Virus record (IMG/VR): IMGVR_UViG_3300025687_000060
Coordinates: 1-52,685 of that record
Strand: one strand, 5' to 3'
Source: a virus
Length of the DNA: 52,685 bases
The notes under the pieces were generated by a model. That model saw nothing but the letters and a program-made list of their open reading frames with translations. It did no database searches and was not told where the DNA came from. Made by a program: the position numbers and the translations under genes. Positions 30,966 to 51,476 of this stretch are shown here, in pieces; the stretch's first letter is position 1; each line of letters starts with the position of its first letter.

Positions 30966-32018
30966 ATGCTTGGTACATACGATTATCACGAAATTATTAG
31001 AAAAACCATTATTGCATTTGGTACACTTTTTAATAATATAGAGATTAGACACAAAAAACAAGATGGCAGCAGTTATAGTGTCATCAAAGTTCCTATTGCG
31101 TATGGACCAGCAGAAAAGTTTTTAGCAAGAATTGAACAAAAGCAAGACTTGAGGAAAAGAGTCTCTATTGTCTTGCCACGACTCGCATTTGAAATAACAA
31201 ATATACAATATGATGCGAAAAGAAAAGTTTCAACAATGCAAACTTTCAAAACCGTATCCACAGATGGATCAAAAATAGCGAAGAAAGTTTATATGCCAGT
31301 TCCATATAATGTTGGATTTAGATTATCTTTGCTTGCACAATATAATGAAGATGCTTTGCAAGTAGTTGAGCAAATTCTTCCATTTTTCCAACCATCATTT
31401 AATTTGACAGTTGATTTAGTGAGTTCAATTGGAGAAAAAAGAGATATTCCCATAATTTTAGATTCTATAAATTTTGAAGACAATTATGATCAGGGTTATG
31501 AAGAGAAAAGAGTTATAGTTTATAATTTAGATTTTACTGCTAAGACATTTCTCTTTGGTCCCATTGCTAATTCCACTGAAGGACTCATTAAAAAGGTACA
31601 AGTTGATTATCATACTACCATTGACAAAAATACAGCAAGAAGGGAATTAAGATATACAGCAGAAGCAAGAGCAACTAAAGATTATAATAATGATGGAACA
31701 TCTGTTATTCTTGAAGACATAGATGAAAAAATAACCTCCTTTAGGGTCGCAAATGTAGGTTCTTTGTCTGTTGAGTCTTACATTTATATAAATCAAGAAG
31801 AAATGCTAATCAAAAAAATTGATGGTGATAATATAACCGTTGTTAGAGGTATGGATACTTCAATAGCATCATCACATAAAAGTGGAGATGCTATTGACAT
31901 TATTAATTCAATTGATGATGATTTAATTGATATTGGAGATGACTTTGGTTTCAGTGAGTCTAGATTTGATTTTGGTGATGGAAGAGTTTATAGTCCAACT
32001 AAAGGAGTAGATGTATGA
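30966..32018 (+). CDS. 15: Tail sheath stabiliser / tail completion gp15
   Basis: Encodes 350 residues (T4 gp15 is 272). The N-terminal ~235 residues match the gp15 family: YDYHEIIRKTIIAFGTLFNN, AEKFLARIEQKQDLRKRVSI, LPRLAFEITNIQYDAKRKVS, and DNYDQGYEEKRVIVYNLDFT. gp15 hexamers cap the sheath and tube and bind the neck. The extra C-terminal ~110 residues contain YIYINQEEMLIKKIDGDNIT followed by VVRGMDTSIASSH, a module also present in the two giant proteins. The stop overlaps the gp16 start (ATGA), so neck completion and packaging genes are coupled. Confidence 0.9.
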   Translation: MLGTYDYHEIIRKTIIAFGTLFNNIEIRHKKQDGSSYSVIKVPIAYGPAEKFLARIEQKQDLRKRVSIVLPRLAFEITNIQYDAKRKVSTMQTFKTVSTDGSKIAKKVYMPVPYNVGFRLSLLAQYNEDALQVVEQILPFFQPSFNLTVDLVSSIGEKRDIPIILDSINFEDNYDQGYEEKRVIVYNLDFTAKTFLFGPIANSTEGLIKKVQVDYHTTIDKNTARRELRYTAEARATKDYNNDGTSVILEDIDEKITSFRVANVGSLSVESYIYINQEEMLIKKIDGDNITVVRGMDTSIASSHKSGDAIDIINSIDDDLIDIGDDFGFSESRFDFGDGRVYSPTKGVDV

Positions 32019-32428
32019 GTGAAACATTTGATAAAATAAATCAATCCTTAGATGTAGAAGTCACTGCTAATGAAGTAGTGAAAGAAACTAAAAAGCAGTT
32101 AGCAGAGATCCAAAAGAAGAGTGATTCGGTTACTGACTATGAGTATACACGAGGAAATCTTTATTCTTTGATCGAAAAGGGTCAAGAAGCAATTAATGGT
32201 ATTCTTGAACTGGCAGAAGAAGGGCAACAACCAAGATCATATGAAGTTGTTGGACAATTGATCAAAAGTGTCGGTGATGTAACAGATAAGTTAATAGATC
32301 TTCAGCAGAAGATGAAAGATCTAAATAAAGAAGAGAAGAACACTCCAACTACTGTTAATAATGCATTGTTTGTTGGATCAACCGCAGAACTACAAAAACT
32401 CCTAAAGCAAGGATTTAGCAAAGAATGA
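32015..32428 (+). CDS. 16: Terminase small subunit gp16
   Basis: Encodes 137 residues (T4 gp16 is 164). It is mostly helical and highly charged, with the gp16 core YEYTRGNLYSLIEKGQEAIN, GILELAEEGQQPRSYEVVGQ and LIKSVGDVTDKLIDLQQKMK (residues 43-105), the coiled-coil central domain that makes the DNA-recognition ring. The C-terminal PTTVNNALFVGSTAELQKLL stretch is typical of the family. Stop and next start overlap by ATGA. With gp17 it forms the packaging motor; here two other genes lie between the two subunits. Confidence 0.9.
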   Translation: MSETFDKINQSLDVEVTANEVVKETKKQLAEIQKKSDSVTDYEYTRGNLYSLIEKGQEAINGILELAEEGQQPRSYEVVGQLIKSVGDVTDKLIDLQQKMKDLNKEEKNTPTTVNNALFVGSTAELQKLLKQGFSKE

Positions 32429-33384
32429 AAACTTTCAAAAACTTTATGGAGGCGTCAACTTGCCTTCACACAAAAGAAGGGGAGAAGTGTCCAGTTCATG
32501 GCACGAAAGAATGCCCAGAAGTTATTGAAACACCAAGAAAGAAAAGTAAAAATTATCTTTTGAATAATAAAACAATTGGTGAAGCAAAAGAGAAAGACCA
32601 TGAATATTCAATGGCACGGTCTGAACTAAAGACTGTAACTAATGCAGCAAAACGTCTTCAGAAGAAGATGGGCAAAAAAGGTGAAGGAAATCTTCAGGCA
32701 TGGGTACAATCAAAAATTACTAAGGCAGCAGATTACATTGATACGGCAGCAGATTATGTCACTAATGAAGAAACCATTGTAGAAAAACTGGATGGAAAAA
32801 CACCAAGAGATCCTGGTTATTCGTTGAAGGACTGGTTTAAGGGTTGGGTTCAAACTGGTGGAAAATATGATGGAAAACCTTGTGCTAAGCAACCAGGTCA
32901 GACCACTAAACCTTATTGTAGAGATGCGGATGTTCGTGCATCAATGGATCCTGAAGAGAGAGAAAGAAGAGTAAAGAAAAAACGTAGAGAAGACCCAAAT
33001 CCAAACCGTAAAGGTAAAGCAAAAAATGTTTCAATGGAAGCAGTTGATGCAACAAAGTATGGTGGTCCAGATAAACTCCTTCAGAGATTGGTTCCAAAAG
33101 GAGAAAAGGTTATTCCATCAACTCCCAAAAAAACTGCTAATGTAAAAGAGTCGTATTTAAGAATACAGGAAAGAGGAAAAACATATAGTATTATTTTAAA
33201 TTGGAGGGGTAAATCAATTACAACTCAAATGTTTTTCCCTAAGTTTGGAAGACCGTCCAAATCTGAAGTTTTAGGAGAAATCGTAAAGGTTTATCCTGGT
33301 GCAAAGGTTCTGTACTATAATCCAGTCATGAGGGATCCAACCCAACCTTTACTTTTTGCAGGTACACAAAATGAACCCAGATGA
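32425..33384 (+). CDS. Composite protein between the terminase genes, putative head-targeted
   Basis: Encodes 319 residues with visible segments: (a) an N-terminus MKTFKNFMEAS like the T4 internal-protein targeting peptide; (b) a Cys/His-rich stretch CLHTKEGEKCPVHGTKECP (13-31) that could bind zinc; (c) IGEA (51-54), a match to the I-x-E/A cleavage pattern of gp21; (d) a helical segment DHEYSMARSELKTVTNAAKR and QSKITKAADYIDTAADYVTN (58-113); (e) KYDGKPCAKQPGQTTKPYC and a very basic KKKRREDPNPNRKGKAK tract (148-200); (f) a C-terminal beta domain YSIILNWRGKSITTQMFFPK...VYPGAKVLYYNPV (250-305). I recognise segments d, e and f as types that recur in cyanophage genomes but cannot name their functions. 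Packaging into the head is inference. It overlaps the next gene. Confidence 0.7.
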   Translation: MKTFKNFMEASTCLHTKEGEKCPVHGTKECPEVIETPRKKSKNYLLNNKTIGEAKEKDHEYSMARSELKTVTNAAKRLQKKMGKKGEGNLQAWVQSKITKAADYIDTAADYVTNEETIVEKLDGKTPRDPGYSLKDWFKGWVQTGGKYDGKPCAKQPGQTTKPYCRDADVRASMDPEERERRVKKKRREDPNPNRKGKAKNVSMEAVDATKYGGPDKLLQRLVPKGEKVIPSTPKKTANVKESYLRIQERGKTYSIILNWRGKSITTQMFFPKFGRPSKSEVLGEIVKVYPGAKVLYYNPVMRDPTQPLLFAGTQNEPR

Positions 33385-40791: not shown

Positions 40792-41442
40792 ATGAAACTT
40801 ATCCGAGAAGAAGTCGAAACCGTAGATTTTATCGTTGAAGAAAAAAACGGTAAAAAGAGCATGTATATTGAGGGAACTTTCCTTCAAGGCGATATCAAGA
40901 ACCGCAACGGTAGAATGTATCCTATTCAAACTCTCTGCAGAGAGGTTAATAGATACAATGAAATGTATACCAACAAAGGTAGAGCACTTGGTGAACTCGG
41001 TCACCCCGATGGACCAACAATCAACCTTGATCGTGTATCACACAAAATCGTAAAACTTGAGCAAAGAGGTTCAAACATTTACGGTAAGGCGAAACTTCTT
41101 GAAACTCCAATGGGCAAAATTGCCAAATCCCTGATTAATGAGGGAGTAAAACTTGGTGTTTCTTCTCGTGGCGTTGGTTCAATCAAAATGAACAACGAGG
41201 GCGTAAATATTGTTGGTGAAGACTTTATGTTGGCAACCGCTGCAGATATCGTCGCTGATCCTTCTGCACCAGATGCATTTGTTGATGGAATCATGGAAGG
41301 AAAAGAATGGGTTTGGGAAGGTGGAATCCTTCGTGAAAGATTTGCATCCCATACCAGAAACAGGATAAATACATTAGTTGATCAACGTGCTCTTGAAGAG
41401 CACAAACTTCAACTGTTTAATGATTTTCTATCAAATTTGTAA
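40792..41442 (+). CDS. 21: Prohead protease gp21
   Basis: Encodes 216 residues from ATG 40792 (T4 gp21 is 212); an upstream in-frame start at 40756 lies inside the previous gene. The serine-protease core is clear: GELGHPDG with His71, and GVSSRGVGSIK with Ser124/125, plus the acidic EGVNIVGEDFMLATAADIVA segment and the late SAPDAFVDGI. It cleaves gp23, gp22, the core proteins and targeted internal proteins at I/L-x-E sites during head maturation. No own late box; it probably reads from 40276. Confidence 0.94.
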   Translation: MKLIREEVETVDFIVEEKNGKKSMYIEGTFLQGDIKNRNGRMYPIQTLCREVNRYNEMYTNKGRALGELGHPDGPTINLDRVSHKIVKLEQRGSNIYGKAKLLETPMGKIAKSLINEGVKLGVSSRGVGSIKMNNEGVNIVGEDFMLATAADIVADPSAPDAFVDGIMEGKEWVWEGGILRERFASHTRNRINTLVDQRALEEHKLQLFNDFLSNL

Positions 41443-41498: not shown

Positions 41499-42632
41499 AT
41501 GTCCAGTGGAAAAGATTTACAAGAAATGGAAGTAGGCACTGCTCAATCCAAGACAGCCGTTAACGCTAACGCAAAACCTGGCGATCCAATGCCTTCGGGT
41601 AATGCATCTGGTGTAATGGCACCAGGTCAAACTGGATCTTGGGAAGATCTTGGCGGTCCTACCCCAGAGAATTACAAAGCAGACGACGATTCAGCAAAAC
41701 TGAAGACTCCTGGTGCTTCACTGAAGCAAGTAAGAGATGTCGTCAATTCTAAGGCGGTTAAGGCTGAGGAAGTTGAGGTAGAAGACCAAGAATTAGTTGC
41801 CGAAGAAGAAGTGACCGAAGAGGACGCTCTCCGTAGCAAAGTTGAAGAAGCAATTTCCGAATCAGAAGAAGAGGTTGTTGCTGAAGAGACCGAAGAAGAA
41901 GTCGTTGAACTGAACATTGAAGAAGATGTTGAAGCACTTCTTCAAGGTGAAGAACTCTCCGAAGAGTTCCAGGAAAAGGCAAAAGTTATCTTTGAATCTG
42001 CAATCAATGCTAAAGTTGCAGCAATCAGAGAAGAACTGCAGCAGTCCTACGAAAATGCAATCGTAGAACAAGTAGAAGAATTCAAGAGTGAGATCACCGA
42101 AAGAGTTGACTCATATCTTGAGTATGTTGCTGACGAGTGGATCCAAGAAAATGCACTCGCAGTTGAAGAAGGTCTTAAGACCGAGATGACCGAATCATTC
42201 CTCCAAGGAATGAAGGGTCTTTTTGAAGAACATTATGTAACAATCCCTGAAGATAGATATGATGTACTTGAGAGCATGGTAAATAAACTTGATGAAATGG
42301 AAGAAAAACTCAACGAGCAAATCGAAAGAAATGTTGCTCTAAACAAGAGACTGGCAGAGTCTGTTACCGATGGAATCTTAGGTGAAGTTTCTGAGGGACT
42401 TGCAGTTACTCAGAAAGAAAAACTCGCTTCTCTTTCCGAAAGTGTTGAGTTTGAAAGTGAAGAAGACTACCGTGAGAAACTGGTTACCTTGAAGGAAGCA
42501 TACTTCCCATCAAGAGTAGTTAGTGCTCAAAGAGATTCCGCTGAGTTTATTTCAGAAAACAATTCACAGATCTATTCATCTGGATCCATGAGTGGTTATC
42601 TGTCTGCACTCCAGAGAGTTTCTAAAAAGTAA
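41499..42632 (+). CDS. 22: Prohead scaffold protein gp22
   Basis: Encodes 377 residues (T4 gp22 is 269). It is extremely acidic: residues 85-150 are mostly Glu and Val (VEVEDQELVAEEEVTEEDAL, SEEEVVAEETEEEVVELNIE). A long helical coiled-coil part (EEFQEKAKVIFESAINAKVA, AIREELQQSYENAIVEQVEE) is followed by the conserved C-terminal segment SEDYREKLVTLKEAYFPSR and SGYLSALQR typical of T4-like scaffolds. It forms the core that shapes the prohead and is destroyed by gp21. It has an exact late promoter. Confidence 0.92.
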   Translation: MSSGKDLQEMEVGTAQSKTAVNANAKPGDPMPSGNASGVMAPGQTGSWEDLGGPTPENYKADDDSAKLKTPGASLKQVRDVVNSKAVKAEEVEVEDQELVAEEEVTEEDALRSKVEEAISESEEEVVAEETEEEVVELNIEEDVEALLQGEELSEEFQEKAKVIFESAINAKVAAIREELQQSYENAIVEQVEEFKSEITERVDSYLEYVADEWIQENALAVEEGLKTEMTESFLQGMKGLFEEHYVTIPEDRYDVLESMVNKLDEMEEKLNEQIERNVALNKRLAESVTDGILGEVSEGLAVTQKEKLASLSESVEFESEEDYREKLVTLKEAYFPSRVVSAQRDSAEFISENNSQIYSSGSMSGYLSALQRVSKK

Positions 42633-42682: not shown

Positions 42683-44107
42683 ATGCAAATGTTCAATTCT
42701 GAGCATCTGCAGGAGAAGTGGGCACCATTACTTGATTATGATGGAGTTGATCCTATTAGGGATTCCCATCGCAGAATGGTAACCGCTGTCCTGCTCGAAA
42801 ACCAAGAAAAATTCATGACCGAGGAGCGTGCGTTCCTCTCCGAATCACCCACCAACGCTGCTAACGCTGCTGGTGCATCTGGTGCATTCGGTGGTAGCTC
42901 TGCCGCTGGTGGTGCTACCGCAGGTTTCGACCCCGTTCTGATCTCGCTGATCAGACGTTCAATGCCCAACCTGGTCGCTTATGACCTCGCAGGCGTTCAA
43001 CCAATGAACGGTCCTACTGGACTGATCTTTGCAATGCGTTCACGCTACACCAACCAGTCTGGTACTGAGGCACTCTTTGACGAGGCACAGTCACAGTTCT
43101 CTGGTCAGGACAGCGGCTACAATCTGGAGCAAGGTCTTTACACCGCTCAAGCATCTGACGGTGTGTCAGTTGGTTTCGGTACTACTAGTTCCACCAACCT
43201 CGGTTCAAATCCTGGTCTTCTCAACTCGTCAATCTCACAAGCTGAGTACGCAGTTGGTCAGGGTATGCACACTGGCGACGCTGAGACTCTTGGCGACGGT
43301 GTTGGTAATGCATTCAACGAGATGGCATTCTCTATTGAGAAAGTCACCGTTACTGCAAAGTCAAGAGCACTGAAGGCCGAGTATTCACTCGAACTCGCTC
43401 AGGACCTCAAGGCAATTCACGGTCTGAACGCAGAAGCTGAGTTGGCAAACATTCTGTCAACTGAGATCCTTGCAGAAATCAACCGTGAAGTCATCAGAAC
43501 CATCTATAAGGTTGCTGAGCCTGGTGCTGCTGCAAACACCGCAACTTCAGGTATCTTTGACCTGGACGTTGACTCCAACGGTCGCTGGAGCGTTGAGAAG
43601 TTCAAGGGTCTGCTGTTCCAAATTGAAAGAGATGCGAACGCTATCGCCCAAAGAACTCGTAGAGGGAAGGGCAACATGATCCTCTGCTCTGCAGACGTTG
43701 CCTCCGCACTCACCATGGCAGGTGTTCTTGATTACACCCCTGCTCTGAACGCCAACCTCAACGTTGACGACACTGGCAACACCTTCGCTGGTGTTCTCCA
43801 AGGTAAGTATCGTGTATACATCGATCCTTATTCTGCAAACGTTTCTGCTAATCAGTACTACGTTGTTGGTTATAAGGGTTCTTCACCTTATGACGCTGGT
43901 CTGTTCTATTGCCCATACGTTCCTCTCCAAATGGTTCGTGCCGTTGGTCAGGACACCTTCCAACCCAAGATCGGATTCAAGACCCGTTACGGAATGGTTT
44001 CTAACCCATTCGCTGAGGGTTCATTTGCTGATGGTCAAGGTCTTGGTCGTATCAAGGCAAACAGCAACCGCTACTACAGAAGAGTACGTGTTGACAACCT
44101 CATGTGA
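42683..44107 (+). CDS. 23: Major capsid protein gp23
   Basis: Encodes 474 residues (T4 gp23 is 521). The N-terminal propeptide ends at a gp21-type site, FLSE/S, with cleavage expected after E54, leaving about 420 residues. Conserved blocks include SLIRRSMPNLVAYDLAGVQP MNGPTGLIFAMRSRY, EMAFSIEKVTVTAKSRALKA, EYSLELAQDLKAIHGLNAEA and GLFYCPYVPLQMVRAVGQDT. It builds the capsid lattice. Codons are much more C-ending than in the surrounding genes, which fits selection for very high expression. A strong intrinsic terminator follows. Confidence 0.97.
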   Translation: MQMFNSEHLQEKWAPLLDYDGVDPIRDSHRRMVTAVLLENQEKFMTEERAFLSESPTNAANAAGASGAFGGSSAAGGATAGFDPVLISLIRRSMPNLVAYDLAGVQPMNGPTGLIFAMRSRYTNQSGTEALFDEAQSQFSGQDSGYNLEQGLYTAQASDGVSVGFGTTSSTNLGSNPGLLNSSISQAEYAVGQGMHTGDAETLGDGVGNAFNEMAFSIEKVTVTAKSRALKAEYSLELAQDLKAIHGLNAEAELANILSTEILAEINREVIRTIYKVAEPGAAANTATSGIFDLDVDSNGRWSVEKFKGLLFQIERDANAIAQRTRRGKGNMILCSADVASALTMAGVLDYTPALNANLNVDDTGNTFAGVLQGKYRVYIDPYSANVSANQYYVVGYKGSSPYDAGLFYCPYVPLQMVRAVGQDTFQPKIGFKTRYGMVSNPFAEGSFADGQGLGRIKANSNRYYRRVRVDNLM

Positions 44108-44133
44108 TCCATTAGATCCACAAGGTTATACAG

Positions 44134-44158
44134 GAGGGGCGAATGCCCCTCTTTTTTT
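44134..44158 (+). terminator. Intrinsic terminator after gp23
   Basis: GAGGGGC (44134-44140), loop GAAT, GCCCCTC (44145-44151), then seven T (44152-44158): a textbook rho-independent terminator 27 nt after gp23. Confidence 0.9.
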
Positions 44159-44163
44159 ATCTA

Positions 44164-44171
44164 AATAAATA
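44164..44171 (+). promoter_or_regulatory. Late promoter, AATAAATA variant
   Basis: Directly after the gp23 terminator T-run and 8 nt before the ATG at 44180. That is very close for a leader with an SD, so the start of the transcript may lie at or just before the ATG. Confidence 0.4.
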
Positions 44172-44179
44172 TAAAACTC

Positions 44180-44386
44180 ATGAAATCATATCAAAATTTC
44201 ATCAGTGAAGCATCTAAAAAAAGATGTCCTTCGGGGAAGTATTGGTGTTTTACTGATAAAAAATGTAAGAATATTCCAGCAGGTTTCATGATAGATCGTG
44301 CAGGAATGTTAGCAAAAGAGAATGGTCACACTCAAGATTCCGAATCTGAGGAGAATGGTAATGGTGGAAATGGAGGAGGAGAATGA
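44180..44386 (+). CDS. Small Cys-rich protein with head-targeting-like N-terminus
   Basis: Encodes 68 residues. The first eleven, MKSYQNFISEA, match the T4 internal-protein targeting peptide pattern M-K-T-Y-Q-E-F-I-A-E/A, with the expected gp21 cut after E10. The mature part has four Cys/aromatic landmarks, RCPSGKYWCFTDKKCKNIP (15-33), that could form a small disulphide or metal-bound knot, and a Gly/Glu/Asn-rich tail. The gene overlaps the next by ATGA. Packaging in the head and injection with DNA is inference from the N-terminus. Confidence 0.65.
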   Translation: MKSYQNFISEASKKRCPSGKYWCFTDKKCKNIPAGFMIDRAGMLAKENGHTQDSESEENGNGGNGGGE

Positions 44387-44925
44387 AACCCTGGACTAAT
44401 CAAATTGATAACAGGAACTATCTTTCTCCTGTAGGATTTAAATTTTCAATTACAAGAGTACCCAAAGCAGACTTCTTTTCAAACTCTGCTTCAATTCCAG
44501 GTATCAATCTTGGATTTGCTCTACAACCAACTTATCTGAAGGACATTCCAGTTCCTGGGGATAAGTTAACATATCAAGATTTCACATTAAGATTTTTTGT
44601 TGACGAAAACTTAACCAACTACATGGAAGTTCATAATTGGTTAAGGGGTCTTGGATATCCAGAAAGTGTCCAAGAATTTATTGATATGAAAGCAGAAAAT
44701 ATATATGATCCGAGTATATCATCTAAGGATCCAATGAATGAGTATTCGGATGCAAGTCTCTTTATCTACAACAGTAATTTTAATGAGATTGCAAGAATAG
44801 ATTTCAAAGATGTATTCCCCGTAAGTCTTTCTACAGTTCAGTTTGACGCAACTGCAGAAGACATTGATTATGTCACTGCAGAAGTCACTTTTAAATACTC
44901 GATATATAATATAGTGGTTTTATGA
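44383..44925 (+). CDS. 3: Tail completion protein, gp3-type tube fold
   Basis: Encodes 180 residues (T4 gp3 is 176). It has the tube-protein pattern (GFKFSITRVPKADFFSNSAS, IPVPGDKLTYQDFTLRFFVD, ENLTNYMEVHNWLRGLGYPE, FPVSLSTVQFDATAEDIDYV) shared by gp3, gp19 and gp54-type proteins; size and place between gp23 and UvsY favour gp3. gp3 caps the tail tube and helps stabilise the sheath. gp54 (tube initiator) is the main alternative, but that protein is usually longer. Confidence 0.72.
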   Translation: MKPWTNQIDNRNYLSPVGFKFSITRVPKADFFSNSASIPGINLGFALQPTYLKDIPVPGDKLTYQDFTLRFFVDENLTNYMEVHNWLRGLGYPESVQEFIDMKAENIYDPSISSKDPMNEYSDASLFIYNSNFNEIARIDFKDVFPVSLSTVQFDATAEDIDYVTAEVTFKYSIYNIVVL

Positions 44926-44933
44926 TTTGATTT

Positions 44934-45362
44934 ATGAATCTTGATGAAATTCAAACATTATGGGAAGAAGATTCAAAAATAGACGAAGACAATCTACACG
45001 CAGAGTCTACAAAGATTCCTTCTCTTCATGCAAAATATTATAAAATTTTAAATAATATTCTTCTGCTGAAGAAGATTGAAGAAAACAAATTAAAGCAACT
45101 CAAAAAAGATAAATGGCAATATTACACGGGCAAAGCAGACCCAGAAGTGTATATTGATAAACCATTTGATTATAAAGTCTTAAGGCAAGATGTAGACAAG
45201 TACATAGATGCCGATGAAGATCTTATCAAGATTAGTAGTAAGATTGATTATTACCAAATAATGTTAAATTATTTGGATAGTATCCTAAAAACCATCAATA
45301 ATAGAACTTATCAAATTAAGAATTCTATTGAGTGGCAACAGTTTATAAGGGGTTATAGTTGA
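44934..45362 (+). CDS. uvsY: Recombination mediator UvsY
   Basis: Encodes 142 residues (T4 UvsY is 137). It is helical and charged; the middle KWQYYTGKADPEVYIDKPFD matches the Y-Y-T/S-G-K/R-x-D/A-P region of UvsY, and the C-terminal half (LIKISSKIDYYQIMLNYLDS, ILKTINNRTYQIKNSIEWQQ) matches the family's final helices. UvsY loads the UvsX recombinase on gp32-coated single-stranded DNA. It starts 8 nt after the gp3-type gene and its stop overlaps the UvsW start (TGATG). Confidence 0.9.
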   Translation: MNLDEIQTLWEEDSKIDEDNLHAESTKIPSLHAKYYKILNNILLLKKIEENKLKQLKKDKWQYYTGKADPEVYIDKPFDYKVLRQDVDKYIDADEDLIKISSKIDYYQIMLNYLDSILKTINNRTYQIKNSIEWQQFIRGYS

Positions 45363-46831
45363 TGGCAGATCTCGTTATCCGTAAAAAGAATGAGGTATAT
45401 GTAACAATCAAAGCAGAACCACATATCAACCAAGAACTATCTGACCATTTTACGTTTGATGTTCCTGGTGCAAAGTTCATGCCTCAATACCGTAGTAAGT
45501 ATTGGGATGGAAAGATCAGACTGTATAGTTCTCATACTGGTGAGATCTATGTTGGTCTTCTTGATAAAGTAATGGCATGGGCAAAAAACTCTGGATATAC
45601 AGTAGAGTTTGAGTATAATAAGTTCTATGGTGCTCCATTTGAAGTCAATGAAATGATTTCAAGAGAGGGTGTCAAGGATTATATGACACGGATTGCCAAA
45701 TTTAAACCAAGAGATTATCAAGTTGATGCAGTATATGATGCACTTAGATATAATCGTAAACTGTTAATTTCACCAACTGCTTCTGGTAAATCCTTGATGA
45801 TTTATTCTGTGGTGAGATACTTTTCAGAAAAAAATAAAAAAATTCTTCTTGTTGTTCCAACTACATCTCTCGTAGAGCAGATGTTCAAGGACTTCCAGGA
45901 CTATGGATGGAATGCAGAAGATTATTGCCATAAGATCTATTCGGGTAAAGAAAAGACAAATCAAGCACCTGTCACAATTACAACTTGGCAGTCTATTTAC
46001 AAATTACAAAGATCATTCTTCAAGGACTTTGAAGTTATCATCGGAGACGAAGCACACCTATTTAAGTCTAAGTCTCTAGTGAGCATCATGACCAAGATGG
46101 ACAGTGCCAAATATAGATTTGGTTTCACTGGAACATTAGATGGCACACAGACGCATAAATGGGTGTTAGAAGGATTATTTGGACCATCATACAAAGTCAC
46201 ACAAACAAAAGATCTTATTGATAAGGGACATCTTTCACAGTTACAAATTCACGTTTTGCTGATGAAGCATGATTCACAACAGTTTGAAACTTATGAAGAT
46301 GAGATTCAATATATTATTGGGCACGAAAAAAGAAATAACTTTATCAAAAACTTGGTCTTGGATTTAAAAGGCAATAGTCTTGTATTGTTTAGTAGAGTAG
46401 AATCTCATGGACAACCACTCTACGAATTAATAAATAATTCTGTGAAAGATAATCGTAAAATATTTTATGTACACGGTGGAGTTGACGCAGAACAAAGAGA
46501 ACTAGTTAGAGAGATCACAGAAAAAGAAAACAATGCTGTAATTGTTGCATCTTATGGAACATTTTCAACTGGTATCAACATTAAGAATCTACACAATGTA
46601 ATCTTTGCATCACCATCCAAATCAAGAGTTAGAAACTTACAATCAATCGGAAGAGTTCTAAGAAAAGGAGACAACAAGACTCAAGCAGTTCTTTATGATA
46701 TTGCTGACGATATAACTTTTAAATCAAGAAAAAATTATACATTAAATCATTTGGTTGAAAGAATCAAGATTTATAATCAAGAGAAATTCAATTATGAAAT
46801 CGTACAAGTAAGTTTAAAGAAAAATGTATAA
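45362..46831 (+). CDS. uvsW: UvsW RNA-DNA and DNA helicase
   Basis: Encodes 489 residues from ATG 45362; a TTG one codon upstream is less likely. T4 UvsW is about 503. SF2 motifs: Q-like KPRDYQVDAV (115-124), Walker A SPTASGKS (137-144), DEAH (229-232), SAT-equivalent FTGTLDG (about 256-262), and QSIGRVLRKG (about 427-436). The first ~90 residues (VTIKAEPHINQELSDHFTFD, KFMPQYRSKYWDGKIRLYS) fit the N-terminal domain of UvsW. It unwinds R-loops and branched DNA and helps switch from origin to recombination-dependent replication. The stop overlaps the next start by 8 nt. Confidence 0.93.
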   Translation: MADLVIRKKNEVYVTIKAEPHINQELSDHFTFDVPGAKFMPQYRSKYWDGKIRLYSSHTGEIYVGLLDKVMAWAKNSGYTVEFEYNKFYGAPFEVNEMISREGVKDYMTRIAKFKPRDYQVDAVYDALRYNRKLLISPTASGKSLMIYSVVRYFSEKNKKILLVVPTTSLVEQMFKDFQDYGWNAEDYCHKIYSGKEKTNQAPVTITTWQSIYKLQRSFFKDFEVIIGDEAHLFKSKSLVSIMTKMDSAKYRFGFTGTLDGTQTHKWVLEGLFGPSYKVTQTKDLIDKGHLSQLQIHVLLMKHDSQQFETYEDEIQYIIGHEKRNNFIKNLVLDLKGNSLVLFSRVESHGQPLYELINNSVKDNRKIFYVHGGVDAEQRELVREITEKENNAVIVASYGTFSTGINIKNLHNVIFASPSKSRVRNLQSIGRVLRKGDNKTQAVLYDIADDITFKSRKNYTLNHLVERIKIYNQEKFNYEIVQVSLKKNV

Positions 46832-47216
46832 AGACGAATTCTATGCAACTATTAAATTAATATCTGGAGAAGAAATATTTGCTAAAGTAACTCCATGTGA
46901 AGAAGAAGAAAAAACCCTATTGCTTTTAGAAGATCCTGTTACATTTGAAATAATCACTATTCGTCAAATGGGAGTGAATGCTATTCAAATAAATCCATGG
47001 ATGTCAATGTCAAGTGATGCAATCTTAGTTATTAATATGGAAAAAATAATAACTATTAGTGAAGTTAATGACGATGAAATTATTTCAGTTTATAATAGAT
47101 ACTTAAGAGATAAAAATAGAGATACAAATCAAACAAGAGTAAATGAAAAAATGGGATTCTTATCATCCATCTCTAATGCTAGAGAGTCTTTAGAAAGACT
47201 TTATAAAAGTAGCTAA
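46824..47216 (+). CDS. Sm-like fold protein, unknown function
   Basis: Encodes 130 residues. The N-terminal ~75 residues (FYATIKLISGEEIFAKVTPC, KTLLLLEDPVTFEIITI, AIQINPWMSMSSDAILVI) follow the five-strand pattern of Sm/LSm domains: 'v-x-L-x-s-G-e-e-i-x-a-k-v-x...l-l-L-x-d-p-v'. A basic/acidic C-terminal helix (ESLERLYKSS end) follows. Sm folds bind RNA, but in phages may also act as structural rings; RNA binding is inferred from the fold only. It overlaps uvsW by 8 nt and precedes the gp55 promoter by about 50 nt. Confidence 0.55.
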   Translation: MYKDEFYATIKLISGEEIFAKVTPCEEEEKTLLLLEDPVTFEIITIRQMGVNAIQINPWMSMSSDAILVINMEKIITISEVNDDEIISVYNRYLRDKNRDTNQTRVNEKMGFLSSISNARESLERLYKSS

Positions 47217-47264
47217 AGTAACCCTTTAACCCTGACAGAGTGATTCTACTTAAAATACTTGAAC

Positions 47265-47294
47265 TTGTCAAGCCTTTTAGTTTTATGCTATAAT
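47265..47294 (+). promoter_or_regulatory. Host-type promoter for gp55
   Basis: TTGTCA (47265-47270), 18-nt spacer ending TGC, TATAAT (47289-47294): both a -35 and an extended -10. A small inverted repeat CTTGA/TCAAG overlaps the -35. Confidence 0.75.
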
Positions 47295-47322
47295 ATGAAC
47301 ATACTTAAAAAGAAATCATGAA

Positions 47323-47799
47323 ATGTCCAGAACTAGAAAAAAATCAGAACATTATGTAAACAATAAAGAGTTTTTAGAAGCACTGATTGTTTACAGAAAC
47401 AAAGTTAGAATAGCACACGAGAAAGGAGAACCAACTCCTCGTATCACTAATTATCTTGGAGAATGTTTTCTCAAGATTGCCACTCACCTCTCATACAAAC
47501 CTAATTTTGTGAACTATATGTTTAGGGAGGACATGATCTGCGATGGCATTGAAAACTGTGTCCAATACATTAAGAATTTTGATCCAGAGAAGTCTTCTAA
47601 TCCTTTTGCATACTTCACTCAGATCATTCACTATGCGTTCCTGAGAAGGATTCAAAAGGAAAAACGTCAAATGGATATTCGGACTAAGATCATTGAACGA
47701 TCAGGATTTGATGAAGTGTTTAGTGGAGATGGTGACATTTACAATACTTCCGATTATAATACCATTAAGGAGAACATTCAATCTAAACTTTATTCATGA
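47323..47799 (+). CDS. 55: Late transcription sigma factor gp55
   Basis: Encodes 158 residues (T4 gp55 is 185). The sigma region 2-like core is clear: EDMICDGIENCVQYIKNFDP, EKSSNPFAYFTQIIHYAFLR, RIQKEKRQMDIRTK (about residues 67-125), with the NPFAYFTQI signature of gp55. It directs RNA polymerase to TATAAATA boxes, many of which are seen in this window. It is transcribed from a host-type promoter, not a late box, as the switch requires. The stop overlaps the gp47 start (ATGA). Confidence 0.94.
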   Translation: MSRTRKKSEHYVNNKEFLEALIVYRNKVRIAHEKGEPTPRITNYLGECFLKIATHLSYKPNFVNYMFREDMICDGIENCVQYIKNFDPEKSSNPFAYFTQIIHYAFLRRIQKEKRQMDIRTKIIERSGFDEVFSGDGDIYNTSDYNTIKENIQSKLYS

Positions 47800-48839
47800 A
47801 AATTGCTCTGATAACCGATACTCATTATGGTGCTCGTAAGAGCAGTAAAACATTTCATGATTTCTTTCAAAAGTTCTATGACAATGTTTTTTTCCCAACC
47901 CTAGAGGAAAGAAACATTAAAACGGTTATCCACCTTGGAGATGCCTTTGATAGTCGTAAGACTATTGACTTTTGGGCATTAGATTGGGCAAAGAAGCACG
48001 TCTACAATAAGTTTAGAGATTTAGGAGTTAAGTTATACAACATTGTTGGTAACCATGATGCTTACTACAAAAATACCAATGATGTTAACTCTATCAATTC
48101 CTTGCTTACTGAGTATAAGAATGTAGTTAAAGTTACAGAACCAAAAGAGTATAAGGTTGGGAATACTAATATTCTTTTAGTTCCTTGGATTTGTCAGGAC
48201 AATGAGCAGCAGACTTTTGAAGTTGTAAAGAGTTCTAAGGCAAAAGTTGTCATGGGGCATCTTGAGTTGAATGGATTCCAGTCTCACCGTGGTCATGTTA
48301 TGGATCATGGCATGGATCCATCTTCTTTTGATAAGTTTGATCTTGTATTTTCTGGTCATTATCATACACGATCTAATGATGGAAAGATTTTCTATATTGG
48401 AAATCCCTATCAGATGTTCTGGAACGATGTAGATGATAAACGAGGATTTCATATCTTTGATACAGAAACATATGAAATGGAGTTCATTGAGAACCCATAT
48501 ACAATGTTTGAAAGAATCTACTATGAGGATTCTAATTACAAAACATTCAACTCCTCTTTTCTGAAAGACAAGATCGTTAAGGTTGTTGTCCGTAAAAAAT
48601 CAGATCAACTCCAATTTGAAAAGTTCATTGATAAAATTATAAAAACAGGATGTGTTGATATTAAGATTGTTGAGAACTTTGCGATCAATGATGATGAGGT
48701 CAATTTATCCCAAGATGAGTGCGAAGACACATTAACCATTTTGAATAAATACATTGACGATTCGGACTTTGATCTGGATAAAGATATTGTCAAACAGTTG
48801 ATGAAAGAAGTTTATCAAGAGGCTTGCGAGTTGGAATAA
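47796..48839 (+). CDS. 47: Recombination endonuclease subunit gp47 (Mre11-like)
   Basis: Encodes 347 residues (T4 gp47 is 339). All phosphodiesterase motifs are visible: TDTHYG (D8-H10), HLGDAFDS (D49), VGNHDAYY (N86-H87-D88), VMGHLELNG (about 151) and SGHYHTRS (about 185-192). With gp46 it resects double-strand breaks for recombination-driven replication. It is coupled to gp55 by ATGA overlap and to the DUF3110 gene by one base. Confidence 0.95.
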   Translation: MKIALITDTHYGARKSSKTFHDFFQKFYDNVFFPTLEERNIKTVIHLGDAFDSRKTIDFWALDWAKKHVYNKFRDLGVKLYNIVGNHDAYYKNTNDVNSINSLLTEYKNVVKVTEPKEYKVGNTNILLVPWICQDNEQQTFEVVKSSKAKVVMGHLELNGFQSHRGHVMDHGMDPSSFDKFDLVFSGHYHTRSNDGKIFYIGNPYQMFWNDVDDKRGFHIFDTETYEMEFIENPYTMFERIYYEDSNYKTFNSSFLKDKIVKVVVRKKSDQLQFEKFIDKIIKTGCVDIKIVENFAINDDEVNLSQDECEDTLTILNKYIDDSDFDLDKDIVKQLMKEVYQEACELE

Positions 48840-49126
48840 TGTTTATACTTACAGTTGCTGGGCAAGAAGAGGAGGGTGCCTATGCAGTTCACGACGAAGA
48901 CGGAGAAAAGGCACTGTACCTTTTTGAAGATGAAGATGATGCAACTAGATATGCAGGACTTTTAGAGGCAGAAGACTATCCAGAAATGTCCGTTGTGGAA
49001 GTTGATCATGAGGTTGCAATAAACACCTGTAACGTGTATAATTACCGATATGTGATTATCACATCTGACGACCTAGTGATCCCACCAAGAGATAATGATT
49101 TTATTCAAACAGATAAGATGGCGTAA
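48839..49126 (+). CDS. DUF3110 protein between gp47 and gp46
   Basis: Encodes 95 residues from ATG 48839; the in-frame TTG at 48824 lies inside gp47. Residues 15-55 (AYAVHDEDGEKALYLFEDED, DATRYAGLLEAEDYPEMSVV) match the DUF3110 pattern common in cyanobacteria and their phages: a strand, 'L-F-e-x-e-d-D-A-x-R-y-A-g-L-L-E-A-q-d-f-P', then 'v-x-e-v-d'. The function is unknown in hosts as well. It is fully embedded in the gp47-gp46 operon, overlapping gp47 by 1 nt and gp46 by 32 nt, which ties its dose to the recombination nuclease. Host origin is inferred from family distribution. Confidence 0.75.
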   Translation: MFILTVAGQEEEGAYAVHDEDGEKALYLFEDEDDATRYAGLLEAEDYPEMSVVEVDHEVAINTCNVYNYRYVIITSDDLVIPPRDNDFIQTDKMA

Positions 49127-50810
49127 TTTCCTTTCCACTGGGAATCACTTTACTGAGATTGATTTTACTGAAGCACAAACGAATCTGATTGTTGGAACCA
49201 ACGGAGCAGGCAAGAGTACGATTCTGGATGCTCTTACCTTTGTTCTTTTTAACAAACCATTTCGTAAAATCAATAAACCTCAACTAATTAATAGTGTGAA
49301 CGAAAAAGATTGTCTAGTGGAGATTGAGTTTTCCACTGGTGCAATTGATTGGAAAGTTGTTCGTGGGATTAAACCGAACATCTTTGAAATTTATAAGAAC
49401 GGATCACTTCTTGATCGTGAAGCAGCAGCAACCGATCAGCAGAAGTGGTTGGAGGAAAATGTTCTTAAACTGAATTACAAGTCTTTCACTCAGATCGTGA
49501 TCCTTGGCAGTGCATCCTTTGTTCCTTTCATGCAACTGCCCGCTGCCAGTCGTCGTGAAATCATTGAGGATCTCTTGGATATTAGGATCTTCTCTTTTAT
49601 GAGTAATATTCTTCGTGACCGAATTCGTAGCACGAATGAAACTGTTCGTGAACTCACCATCCGTAAGGACTTGGTAGAAGAAAAGATTGATATGCAGAAG
49701 AATTTTATTTCTGATCTGGAAGAAACTGGAAAGAAAAATATTCAAGATAAGAGAGATAAGATCAAGCAAATTGGTACGGATATTGATTCTCATCTCAAGG
49801 AAGTTGATGAGTACAATGGTGAACTGAAGGCAGTTGAAGAGAAGATGCAGGACTTTTCTGGTTCTGATACTAAACTTAAGAAACTTGGAACCCTCCGTGG
49901 CAAACTACAACAAAAAGTTGCAACCATTACCAAAGAACATAAGTTTTTTAGTGAAAATACGGTATGCCCTACCTGTACTCAAAGTATTGAGGAATCATTT
50001 CGCTTAAATAGAATTAATGATGCCGAAACTAAGGCAAAGGAACTCCAACAGGGTTTTGAAGAGTTAGAGGAGGCCATCAGACTTGAAGAGGAAAATGAAA
50101 ACCAATTCAAGGTACTTTCTAGGGAGGCAACTAACTTAACGCATGAGATTTCTAAAGCAAATACTCGGATTTCAGGACTGCACACCAGAACAAGAGATCT
50201 GGAGCAGGAAATTCAAACTATTACCGAACAACTTGAAAACCGAAATTCTGAACGCCATGCATTAGAAAAGTTAATTGAAGAACTGGAGGATCTTCAAAAG
50301 ACACAATCCAAACAAAAAGAAAAAAACGTTTACCACGATTTTGCACATTCTTTAATGAAGGATGGTGGAGTAAAATCCAAAATCATTAAGAGATATCTGC
50401 CTCTTATGAATCAGCAGATCAACAAATATCTTCAATTGATGGACTTCTATATTAACTTCTCTCTGGATGAAGAATTCAAAGAGACGGTGAAGTCCCCAAT
50501 TCATGAAGATTTTAGTTATGAGTCATTCAGCGAAGGGGAGAAGATGAGGATTGACCTTTCTCTCCTCTTCACCTGGAGGGAGATTGCAAAGATGAAAAAT
50601 TCTGCAAGTACTAATCTCTTAATTCTTGATGAGATCTTTGATAGTTCACTTGATGGATTCGGAACAGATTATTTTACAAAGATCATTAAGTATGTTGTAA
50701 CTGATGCGAATGTTTTTGTGATTTCACATAAGACTGATGATCTTATGGATAAGTTTGATAACATCGTTAGATTTGATAAGGTCAAAGGTTTCAGTAAAAA
50801 GGTTTCTTGA
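49095..50810 (+). CDS. 46: Recombination endonuclease subunit gp46 (Rad50-like ATPase)
   Basis: Encodes 571 residues (T4 gp46 is 560). Walker A is GTNGAGKST (34-42), the zinc hook is CPTC (291-294) at the apex of two long coiled coils (about 170-285 and 300-420), the signature is SEGEKMRIDLSLL (about 477-489), and Walker B is LLILDEIFDSS (about 509-519) with a D-loop and late His (VISHKTDDL). It drives gp47 in resection. The start ATG 49095 overlaps the DUF3110 gene by 32 nt. Confidence 0.95.
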   Translation: MILFKQIRWRNFLSTGNHFTEIDFTEAQTNLIVGTNGAGKSTILDALTFVLFNKPFRKINKPQLINSVNEKDCLVEIEFSTGAIDWKVVRGIKPNIFEIYKNGSLLDREAAATDQQKWLEENVLKLNYKSFTQIVILGSASFVPFMQLPAASRREIIEDLLDIRIFSFMSNILRDRIRSTNETVRELTIRKDLVEEKIDMQKNFISDLEETGKKNIQDKRDKIKQIGTDIDSHLKEVDEYNGELKAVEEKMQDFSGSDTKLKKLGTLRGKLQQKVATITKEHKFFSENTVCPTCTQSIEESFRLNRINDAETKAKELQQGFEELEEAIRLEEENENQFKVLSREATNLTHEISKANTRISGLHTRTRDLEQEIQTITEQLENRNSERHALEKLIEELEDLQKTQSKQKEKNVYHDFAHSLMKDGGVKSKIIKRYLPLMNQQINKYLQLMDFYINFSLDEEFKETVKSPIHEDFSYESFSEGEKMRIDLSLLFTWREIAKMKNSASTNLLILDEIFDSSLDGFGTDYFTKIIKYVVTDANVFVISHKTDDLMDKFDNIVRFDKVKGFSKKVS

Positions 50811-50818
50811 AATAAATA
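50811..50818 (+). promoter_or_regulatory. Late promoter, AATAAATA variant
   Basis: Immediately after the gp46 stop; 15 nt to the next ATG. One mismatch to TATAAATA. Confidence 0.5.
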
Positions 50819-50833
50819 AAAGTAAAAAGTTCA

Positions 50834-50995
50834 ATGAAGACTTTTAGTAAATTTATTGAAGAGAGTGGTTCTCCATATCAAGAGTATAAAGGAAAACCAC
50901 AACCAAAACCATCTGCTCCCCCTGAAGGTTGGGAAGAGTTCAAAAAGAAGTACCTTCATGGTAAAATGAGTGAGAAGAAAAAACCAGAGCAATGA
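50834..50995 (+). CDS. 53-residue protein with head-targeting-like N-terminus
   Basis: ATG 50834 to TGA 50993-50995. The N-terminus MKTFSKFIEES has I-E-E/S, so gp21-type cleavage after E10 is expected, at the same position as in T4 internal proteins. The remaining ~43 residues are Pro/Lys-rich and basic (YQEYKGKPQPKPSAPPEGWE, EFKKKYLHGKMSEKKKPEQ), similar in charge to DNA-associated internal proteins. It has a late promoter variant and overlaps the next gene (ATGA). Too short for a family match; head packaging is inference. Confidence 0.6.
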   Translation: MKTFSKFIEESGSPYQEYKGKPQPKPSAPPEGWEEFKKKYLHGKMSEKKKPEQ

Positions 50996-51129
50996 ACACT
51001 CCAAACTGGCAACACCACTCCAAGAAGGAGCAGAAGCGGAAACTGAAACCGCAAGCACTCCGACAAGCAAAGGCACGTCGCCAAGCACTCAAGAAGCGTC
51101 TCAATCAACGAGACGCTTCTTTTTTATAA
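50992..51129 (+). CDS. 45-residue very basic peptide
   Basis: ATG 50992 overlaps the previous stop (ATGA); TAA at 51127-51129. The product (MNTPNWQHHSKKEQKRKLKP, then QALRQAKARRQALKKRLNQR, then DASFL) has about 17 Lys/Arg in 45 residues and no acidic residue except E13 and D41; one continuous basic helix is likely. Nucleic-acid binding is a reasonable inference, no family known. The last codons are built from the right arm of the terminator and its T-run, and the stop lies inside the next late promoter. Confidence 0.6.
   Translation: MNTPNWQHHSKKEQKRKLKPQALRQAKARRQALKKRLNQRDASFL
51091..51125 (+). terminator. Strong intrinsic terminator inside the end of the basic-peptide gene
   Basis: AAGAAGCGTCTC (51091-51102), 7-nt loop, GAGACGCTTCTT (51110-51121): a perfect 12-bp stem followed by T to 51125. 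It overlaps the coding 3' end. Confidence 0.85.
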
Positions 51130-51132
51130 ATA
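51125..51132 (+). promoter_or_regulatory. Late promoter TATAAATA
   Basis: Exact late box that starts at the last T of the terminator and contains the TAA stop (51127-51129). 17 nt to the next ATG. Confidence 0.75.
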
Positions 51133-51149
51133 CCTAGAAAGTCAAGAAA

Positions 51150-51476
51150 ATGGATTTAAAGAAATTTAGGGGATTTATTGAAGCATATGCTTCAATCTAT
51201 GTACCAATTAGCGAATCCCACTTTAAGGTTGGTGATGAAGTCACCTGCAAAGAAAGTGGAATGGAAGGTGAAGTTGTAAAGGTTGATCCAGAAGGAAAGG
51301 GGAAGTATTATACTGTCAAGCGTGAAGATGGTAAGACAGTAAAGTATGCTCCTGATGAATTGGAAAAGGAAAGCGAAGAAGAGGAAGGAGCAAGTAAAGA
51401 GAAGGAGACTGAGTTTCATTCAAAGTTAGATACGATGGTGCATAAGACCTTCGGCAAGAGAGAAGGGGAGAAGTAA
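51150..51476 (+). CDS. Small KOW/Tudor-like protein with head-targeting-like N-terminus
   Basis: Encodes 108 residues. The N-terminus MDLKKFRGFIEAYASIYVPI then SES resembles the F-I-x-E targeting type, with I20-S21-E22/S23 as the best gp21-type cut. Residues 24-72 (HFKVGDEVTCKESGMEGEVV, KVDPEGKGKYYTVKREDGKT, VKYAPDELE) form a KOW/SH3-like beta barrel: 'f-x-v-G-D-x-V-x-c...g-x-x-G-x-V-v-k-v...y-x-V...d-G'. A charged tail follows. It has an exact late promoter upstream, and a conserved bipartite motif and UUCG terminator after the stop. Head packaging is inferred. Confidence 0.65.
   Translation: MDLKKFRGFIEAYASIYVPISESHFKVGDEVTCKESGMEGEVVKVDPEGKGKYYTVKREDGKTVKYAPDELEKESEEEEGASKEKETEFHSKLDTMVHKTFGKREGEK

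Follow-up and report, generated by a model that had tools for sequence, protein, structure and literature searches.

The 52,685-base stretch of viral DNA analysed here (IMG/VR record IMGVR_UViG_3300025687_000060, hereafter the window) is the full length of its record and belongs to a T4-like marine cyanophage, the named genomes closest to it being about 79% identical across no more than a quarter of a 20.7-kb query; the analysis covers the part of the phage genome that lies in the window. Four of its genes, named here by the position of their first base (32425, 44180, 50834 and 51150), probably encode proteins carried as cargo in the phage head: a capsid targeting sequence (CTS) would bind each protein to the gp22 core, a gp21-type protease would cut it, and the mature part would be delivered with the DNA. 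Conservation, the statistics of the motif, the exchange of modules and published proteomes of virions all give good support to head targeting by a CTS of the T4 type. Judged from their sequences, the four genes are one system, linked pieces of a single modular protein family, a connection that the preliminary description of the window had overlooked. The four open reading frames (ORFs) and the residues quoted in that description proved correct when ORFs and translations were rechecked, and all four proteins are found identical on other IMG/VR contigs and are therefore not assembly errors. Their features are as follows.

44180..44386, + strand: 68-residue protein starting MKSYQNFISEA, with a predicted CTS (residues 1-10), Cys module M1 (residues 15-49) and a Gly/Asn-rich tail
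44180..44209, + strand: predicted CTS MKSYQNFISE, with the cut expected after E10 (homologue conservation at positions 2, 7, 8 and 10; T4-mapped positions 4, 7, 8 and 10)
50834..50995, + strand: 53-residue protein starting MKTFSKFIEES, with predicted CTS MKTFSKFIEE and module M4 (residues 12-41)
50834..50863, + strand: predicted CTS of 50834
32425..33384, + strand: 319-residue mosaic protein, a CTS-like start followed by modules M13, M5, M6, M15 and M7
32425..32454, + strand: CTS-like start MKTFKNFMEA (S11 next), in which the glutamate comes one residue earlier than in the canonical I-x-E; relatives read MKTFQEFILEAS and MKSFKEFIKEAN
32575..32583, + strand: I51-G52-E53 (A54 next) of 32425, predicted junction cut ahead of module M5
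33166..33345, + strand: module M7 (residues 248-307) of 32425, elsewhere free-standing with a CTS (PHROG 1742)
51150..51476, + strand: 108-residue protein in which a predicted helix at the N-terminus and a linker with the predicted cut site lead to SH3/Tudor-like module M2 and module M3
51207..51215, + strand: I20-S21-E22/S23 of 51150, predicted cut site in the low-confidence linker from helix 3-17 to the M2 domain

The predicted targeting sequence at the gene starts

In the CTS of T4, residues 4 and 7 serve targeting and residues 8 and 10 processing (T4 head assembly review, PMC9026906), and 44180 and 50834 agree with it at these mapped positions. The likeness to the T4 internal proteins IPI-IPIII (Mullaney and Black, 1996, via PMC9026906) lies in a ten-residue N-terminus with K2, F/Y4, F7, I/L8, E10 and A/S11. 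The T4 peptide MKTYQEFIAE/A, as given in the preliminary description, is right (T4 ipII and ipIII both start MKTYQEFIAEA), and the I-x-E that it had placed at residues 8-10 of 44180 and 50834 is confirmed above permuted-motif chance. Homologues of 44180, picked by their C-terminal Cys module and not by the ten-residue start (hereafter the tag), have K or R at position 2 in 22 of 22 cases and F7, I/L8 and E10 in 20 of 22 each; position 4 is mostly F or L, and positions 3, 5, 6 and 9 vary freely. Near relatives of 50834 read MKTFREFISEA ahead of a different insert, the tag being kept and the body changed. As canonical CTS proteins, 32425 (with its glutamate at position 9) and 51150 (with its site at 20-22) were rejected, and both are retained as shifted or extended forms. 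Described earlier as looser matches, they fare differently: the site of 51150, a hydrophobic residue-x-E at 20-22, is kept in all 18 aligned relatives (E22 is invariant in 18 rows), and its N-terminal region also reads F9-I-E-A12; the I-x-E of 32425 is shifted, though mosaic relatives sharing its first module read FILE/A and FIKE/A. Conservation of I-x-E at residues 8-10 among homologues extends to the 44180 family and to only part of that of 50834.

A strict pattern of the tag (MK.[FYLW]..[FYW][ILMV].E after ATG), searched in 1.38 Mb of sequence enriched for homologues, gave 109 matches, 62 of them distinct, against 0-1 for each of five permuted motifs, and 60 of the 62 coincide with the first ATG of an ORF. 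Chance resemblance of short lysine-rich N-termini, which has in its favour that the comparison involves just 10 residues per protein, is rejected by these permuted motifs and by the conservation in homologues; it is refuted for 44180 and 50834 and has a negligible probability in general. For two less dependent checks, the pattern was widened a little and run on whole genomes, and viral contigs were scanned for a DNA pattern of nothing but the tag. In the T4 genome exactly ipII, ipIII and gp61.1 match, and most cyanomyoviruses have a few tagged genes per genome; the same scan found no match of gene size in S-PM2, and none at any gene start in two cyanopodoviruses and one cyanosiphovirus, the siphovirus having one internal match. 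The IMG/VR viral contigs gave 81 matches in 29 clusters, 77 of them at the first in-frame ATG, and 23 of this set carry a module defined independently in this analysis. The T4 gene 61.1 (L152:18966-19130, - strand) encodes a 54-residue protein, annotated as hypothetical, that starts MKTFKEFIKE/D. Vibrio phage KVP40 has two genes (L345:187-831 and KVP40 156073-157191) with the CTS-like starts MKQFCNFLAE and MKNLKSFMEE.

Modules, mosaics and their junctions

The protein of 32425, which matches PHROG 727 at 2.8e-29, is one of a family of mosaics made of shuffled modules of 20-95 residues, whose genes lie near gp15-gp17 in many cyanophages. Sixteen modules seeded from the mosaic proteins occur in some 60 different arrangements; they are defined by profiles, which replaced an earlier clustering of tagged proteins because it lumped low-complexity tails. 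The modules of the smaller genes recur inside mosaics: M1 (44180) in SynMITS9220M01_097 and SSCSM1_29, M2 and M3 (51150) in that of L110, and M4 (50834) in that of L282. Modules M1, M4, M5, M7 and M10 each exist as well in separate proteins headed by the tag or something close to it, those with M5, M7 and M10 being small tagged proteins, and four mosaics open with a full tag. Within the window, every module is present once. At L024:9749, and also in L043, L055 and L078, one ORF joins a tagged protein to another, an M1 protein whose tag is now internal (RTMKNYSQFMEETKFKTCP).

The linkers that precede internal modules were examined after removal of related ones (152 decorrelated linkers), with random windows and shuffled linkers as controls. 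The pattern [ILMVF]xE is present in 118 of them (78%); in random windows the share is 24%, in shuffled linkers 32%, and none of 1000 random draws was as high; for the T4-like subset [ILM]xE the values are 44%, 14% and 19%, respectively. Mosaics also contain nine complete internal tags, where 0.6 are expected after shuffling, and six of these lie exactly four residues ahead of M10. By their sequence, the mosaic junctions look cleavable, and fusion relics would look similar. A second recurrent peptide, [FY]SNWREEL (e.g., in L294 and L277), has 20 copies in mosaics where shuffles give 0.1; it often directly precedes M10 and may be another core-binding signal.

These modules can be seen as one exchangeable pool, from which 44180 and 50834 would be single CTS-headed genes, 51150 a module gene with a longer cleavable leader, and 32425 a set of modules strung in a mosaic near the terminase genes, with cut-like sites at its junctions. 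During prohead assembly the N-terminal CTS, through its hydrophobic residues 4 and 7, would attach each protein to the gp22 core; the gp21-type protease would then cleave at (I/L/M)-x-E and release the mature part inside the head, from which it would enter the host together with the DNA. The motif, its conservation, the sharing of modules, the enrichment at junctions and, in one phage, the tie between tag and virion are seen in the sequence data; gp22 binding, gp21 cutting, injection and any host function are inferred. Homologues of gp21 and gp22 and a predicted gp23 cut site are present in the window.

40792..41442, + strand: gp21-like head maturation protease, presumed processing enzyme (PHROG 207, 6e-84)
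41499..42632, + strand: gp22-like core scaffold, presumed CTS receptor by its role in T4 (PHROG 237, 1e-109)
42836..42844, + strand: predicted maturation site of gp23, L52-S-E54/S55, in place of T4 FLTE/A

The gp21-like protein probably starts at MKLIREE, by comparison with S-CREM2 gp21. The gp23 site, aligned with T4 FLTE/A, stays L-x-E or M-x-E across cyanophages, and it is from this aligned site that a specificity for (I/L)-x-E is predicted for the prohead protease of the same phage.

Tagged proteins in virions and the competing readings

The published list of 52 virion proteins of S-CREM2 (PMC10665884) includes all three proteins of that phage that fit the strict pattern, namely ORF6 (S-AdoMet lyase), ORF13 and ORF154 (cytidylyltransferase), with a hypergeometric P of 0.013. 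A relaxed pattern (GTG starts, R/Q at position 2) adds ORF14 and ORF136, and all five are on the list (P 0.0006); both probabilities assume 219 genes, and the record has 221 annotated features. In this one phage, then, the tag is associated with the virion. The S-CREM2 mosaic ORF160 is also on the list, with seven peptides, and the virion proteins on record for S-SCSM1 include both a tagged NMNAT (MKSFLQFLKE) and the mosaic SSCSM1_29. The virion NMNAT/cytidylyltransferases (T4-GC 190; S-SCSM1 ORF91) were identified in virions by mass spectrometry, T4-GC 190 in those of S-SM1 (PMC3037559), and the members examined start with a CTS (MKSFLQFLKE, MKNFSSFLTE and MKKFSAFLSE); they were published as unexplained virion enzymes, and the parts of those reports consulted propose no packaging signal. 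Cyanophage virions have repeatedly yielded enzymes, NMNAT and kinases among them, the authors leaving undecided whether they are packaged or contaminants, and the tag offers a packaging mechanism that may explain this recurrence. Further cargo can also be predicted from sequence alone, which is checkable in existing proteomes through cut N-termini, and the tag offers a way into the many small genes of marine phages that lack annotation, and into a possible action on the host before any gene expression.

Several tagged or related genes were seen elsewhere. An adenylate kinase (L131:3642-4214; Pfam ADK, 1e-46) carries a CTS at its N-terminus, MKSFKKYLSE/A. Two adjoining tagged genes (L378:3736-4529) encode a GNAT acetyltransferase and a YHGT protein that looks ADP-ribosyltransferase-like by eye, with no Pfam match. 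Tagged DUF6267 proteins (L362:4695-5942, L364:2007-3155) contain a KWDGAPA motif resembling nucleotidyltransferase/ligase motif I. The virion protein ORF12 of S-CREM2 (L334:7704-10313, - strand) is annotated as Cas9, a doubtful label: Pfam gives nothing for it at 0.01, and LRFASFMAE/A stands near its N-terminus.

A number of observations weigh against packaging and cleavage as proposed. The virion detections come from proteins of other phages, none from the four of the window; tagged SSCSM1_30 is not among the listed virion proteins of S-SCSM1; the relaxed S-CREM2 pattern was widened only after the virion N-termini had been seen; and the authors of both proteomes allow for co-purified non-structural contaminants. 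As regards the sequences, the start of 32425 has E at position 9 and not 10, as do the distant homologues of 50834 (about half of its homologues), which read FIES or FMES. The enrichment at junctions takes in V and F at the first position, outside the (I/L)-x-E rule of T4, and [ILMVF]..E is raised there as well. That the virion enzymes are abundant late proteins that co-purify, their shared N-terminus having an unrelated role, e.g., in translation, was raised by the proteome authors themselves as regards co-purification; it is nevertheless very unlikely, given that all the tagged proteins of S-CREM2 were detected among some 219 genes and that what stays fixed is the amino acid at certain positions, with freely varying residues in between. 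Because of the shared packaging tag, packaging is the likelier reading of the tagged virion enzymes. The reading of the preliminary description is partly supported: head targeting by the CTS is well backed by sequence and by the proteomes of other phages, and packaging, cleavage and injection of these four proteins are predictions.

Another account keeps the free-standing tags as in T4 and regards the motifs at mosaic junctions as relics of fusions between tagged genes, the mosaic being packaged whole. Internal full copies of the CTS with a preceding K (KTFSSFIDE, KSFDSFISE) do look like fused N-termini, and P-TIM68 and the L024-type proteins retain a whole tagged start, Met included, within one ORF; yet junction motifs are common without any full CTS and enriched over shuffled linkers, and the targeting half is retained much less often than the cut-site half, pointing to selection for cutting. 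The relic account is a real possibility, albeit a somewhat improbable one. It is unlikely that the tag directs proteins elsewhere in the virion (to the neck, baseplate or tail) or acts as a helix of general use in assembly: the virion proteomes are silent on location within the particle and the mosaic gene adjoins neck and terminase genes, but the fixed positions are identical to those mapped for head targeting in T4, and the enzymes among the cargo (SAM lyase, NMNAT, adenylate kinase and GNAT, for example) are easier to reconcile with delivery than with a structural role. Turning back to head cargo, the chances are about even for its wider form, a head-loading code in which a pool of modules would be used either as single tagged genes or as polyproteins released by the protease, and the particle would deliver mini-effectors and tagged enzymes (NMNAT, SAM lyase, kinases, acetyltransferases) at DNA entry.

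Small and diverse mature parts, homologues of gp21 and gp22 and a conserved gp23 cut site are further likenesses to the T4 internal proteins; unlike in T4, the mature parts in the window are unrelated to T4 internal proteins, their modules are common to a large mosaic protein, cyanophage tags also occur inside proteins, many enzymes are tagged and the hosts are cyanobacteria. The cyanophage virion proteins T4-GC 119/PHROG 727/DUF6321 share modules with 32425 and have their gene near gp15-gp17. These relatives were already recorded as virion or structural proteins, without a proposed role, and the mosaic family is hence not wholly undescribed, contrary to what had been supposed; a module grammar, junction cut sites or a link to tagged free-standing genes found no description in the literature searched, whose coverage was partial. 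Polyvalent proteins of phages and conjugative elements (PMC5512222) are also many-domain mosaics predicted to be packaged with DNA, some being cut before packaging, but their domains are different ones and often include a peptidase domain of their own, whereas here small Cys/Lys-rich modules are joined by sites like those of the prohead protease. As a polyvalent protein (Iyer et al., 2017), 32425 was considered and rejected: it has no Pfam match, and one mosaic relative holds DUF192 and DUF6321 only.

Folds, neighbouring genes and late-type boxes

Pfam also gave no match in 44180 or 50834, and a fold search found no significant PDB match for M7. The model predicted for 51150 has a helix, a stretch at residues 16-22 with a predicted local distance difference test (pLDDT) score below 50, and a small beta domain, SH3/Tudor-like at low confidence (mean pLDDT 66; best match 5ycq, E 9e-4). 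Such SH3-like and Cys/Lys-rich modules may have binding roles in the host.

The neighbours named earlier (gp16/17, gp23 and gp46) were verified, gp16 by position: the start of 32425 overlaps the end of the gp16-like ORF at 32015, with gp17 two ORFs further on, gp23 precedes 44180, and gp46 precedes 50834. Late-type boxes do precede three of the four genes, as had been pointed out.

44165..44171, + strand: late-type box ATAAATA upstream of 44180
50812..50818, + strand: late-type box ATAAATA upstream of 50834
51125..51132, + strand: late-type box TATAAATA upstream of 51150

They lie 14-24 nt upstream of the starts, but ATAAATA is no more frequent in the window than in shuffles, and the boxes, rejected as strong evidence there, are kept as a weak association. 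In IMG/VR, a TAAATA box stands before 37 of 81 tagged genes and before 175 of 816 background ORFs, an enrichment measured against a control in which some ORFs are spurious. Between gp23 and 44180, at 44133-44155, there is a GC-rich hairpin and, after it, a T run, resembling an intrinsic terminator, and 44180 therefore probably needs its own promoter.

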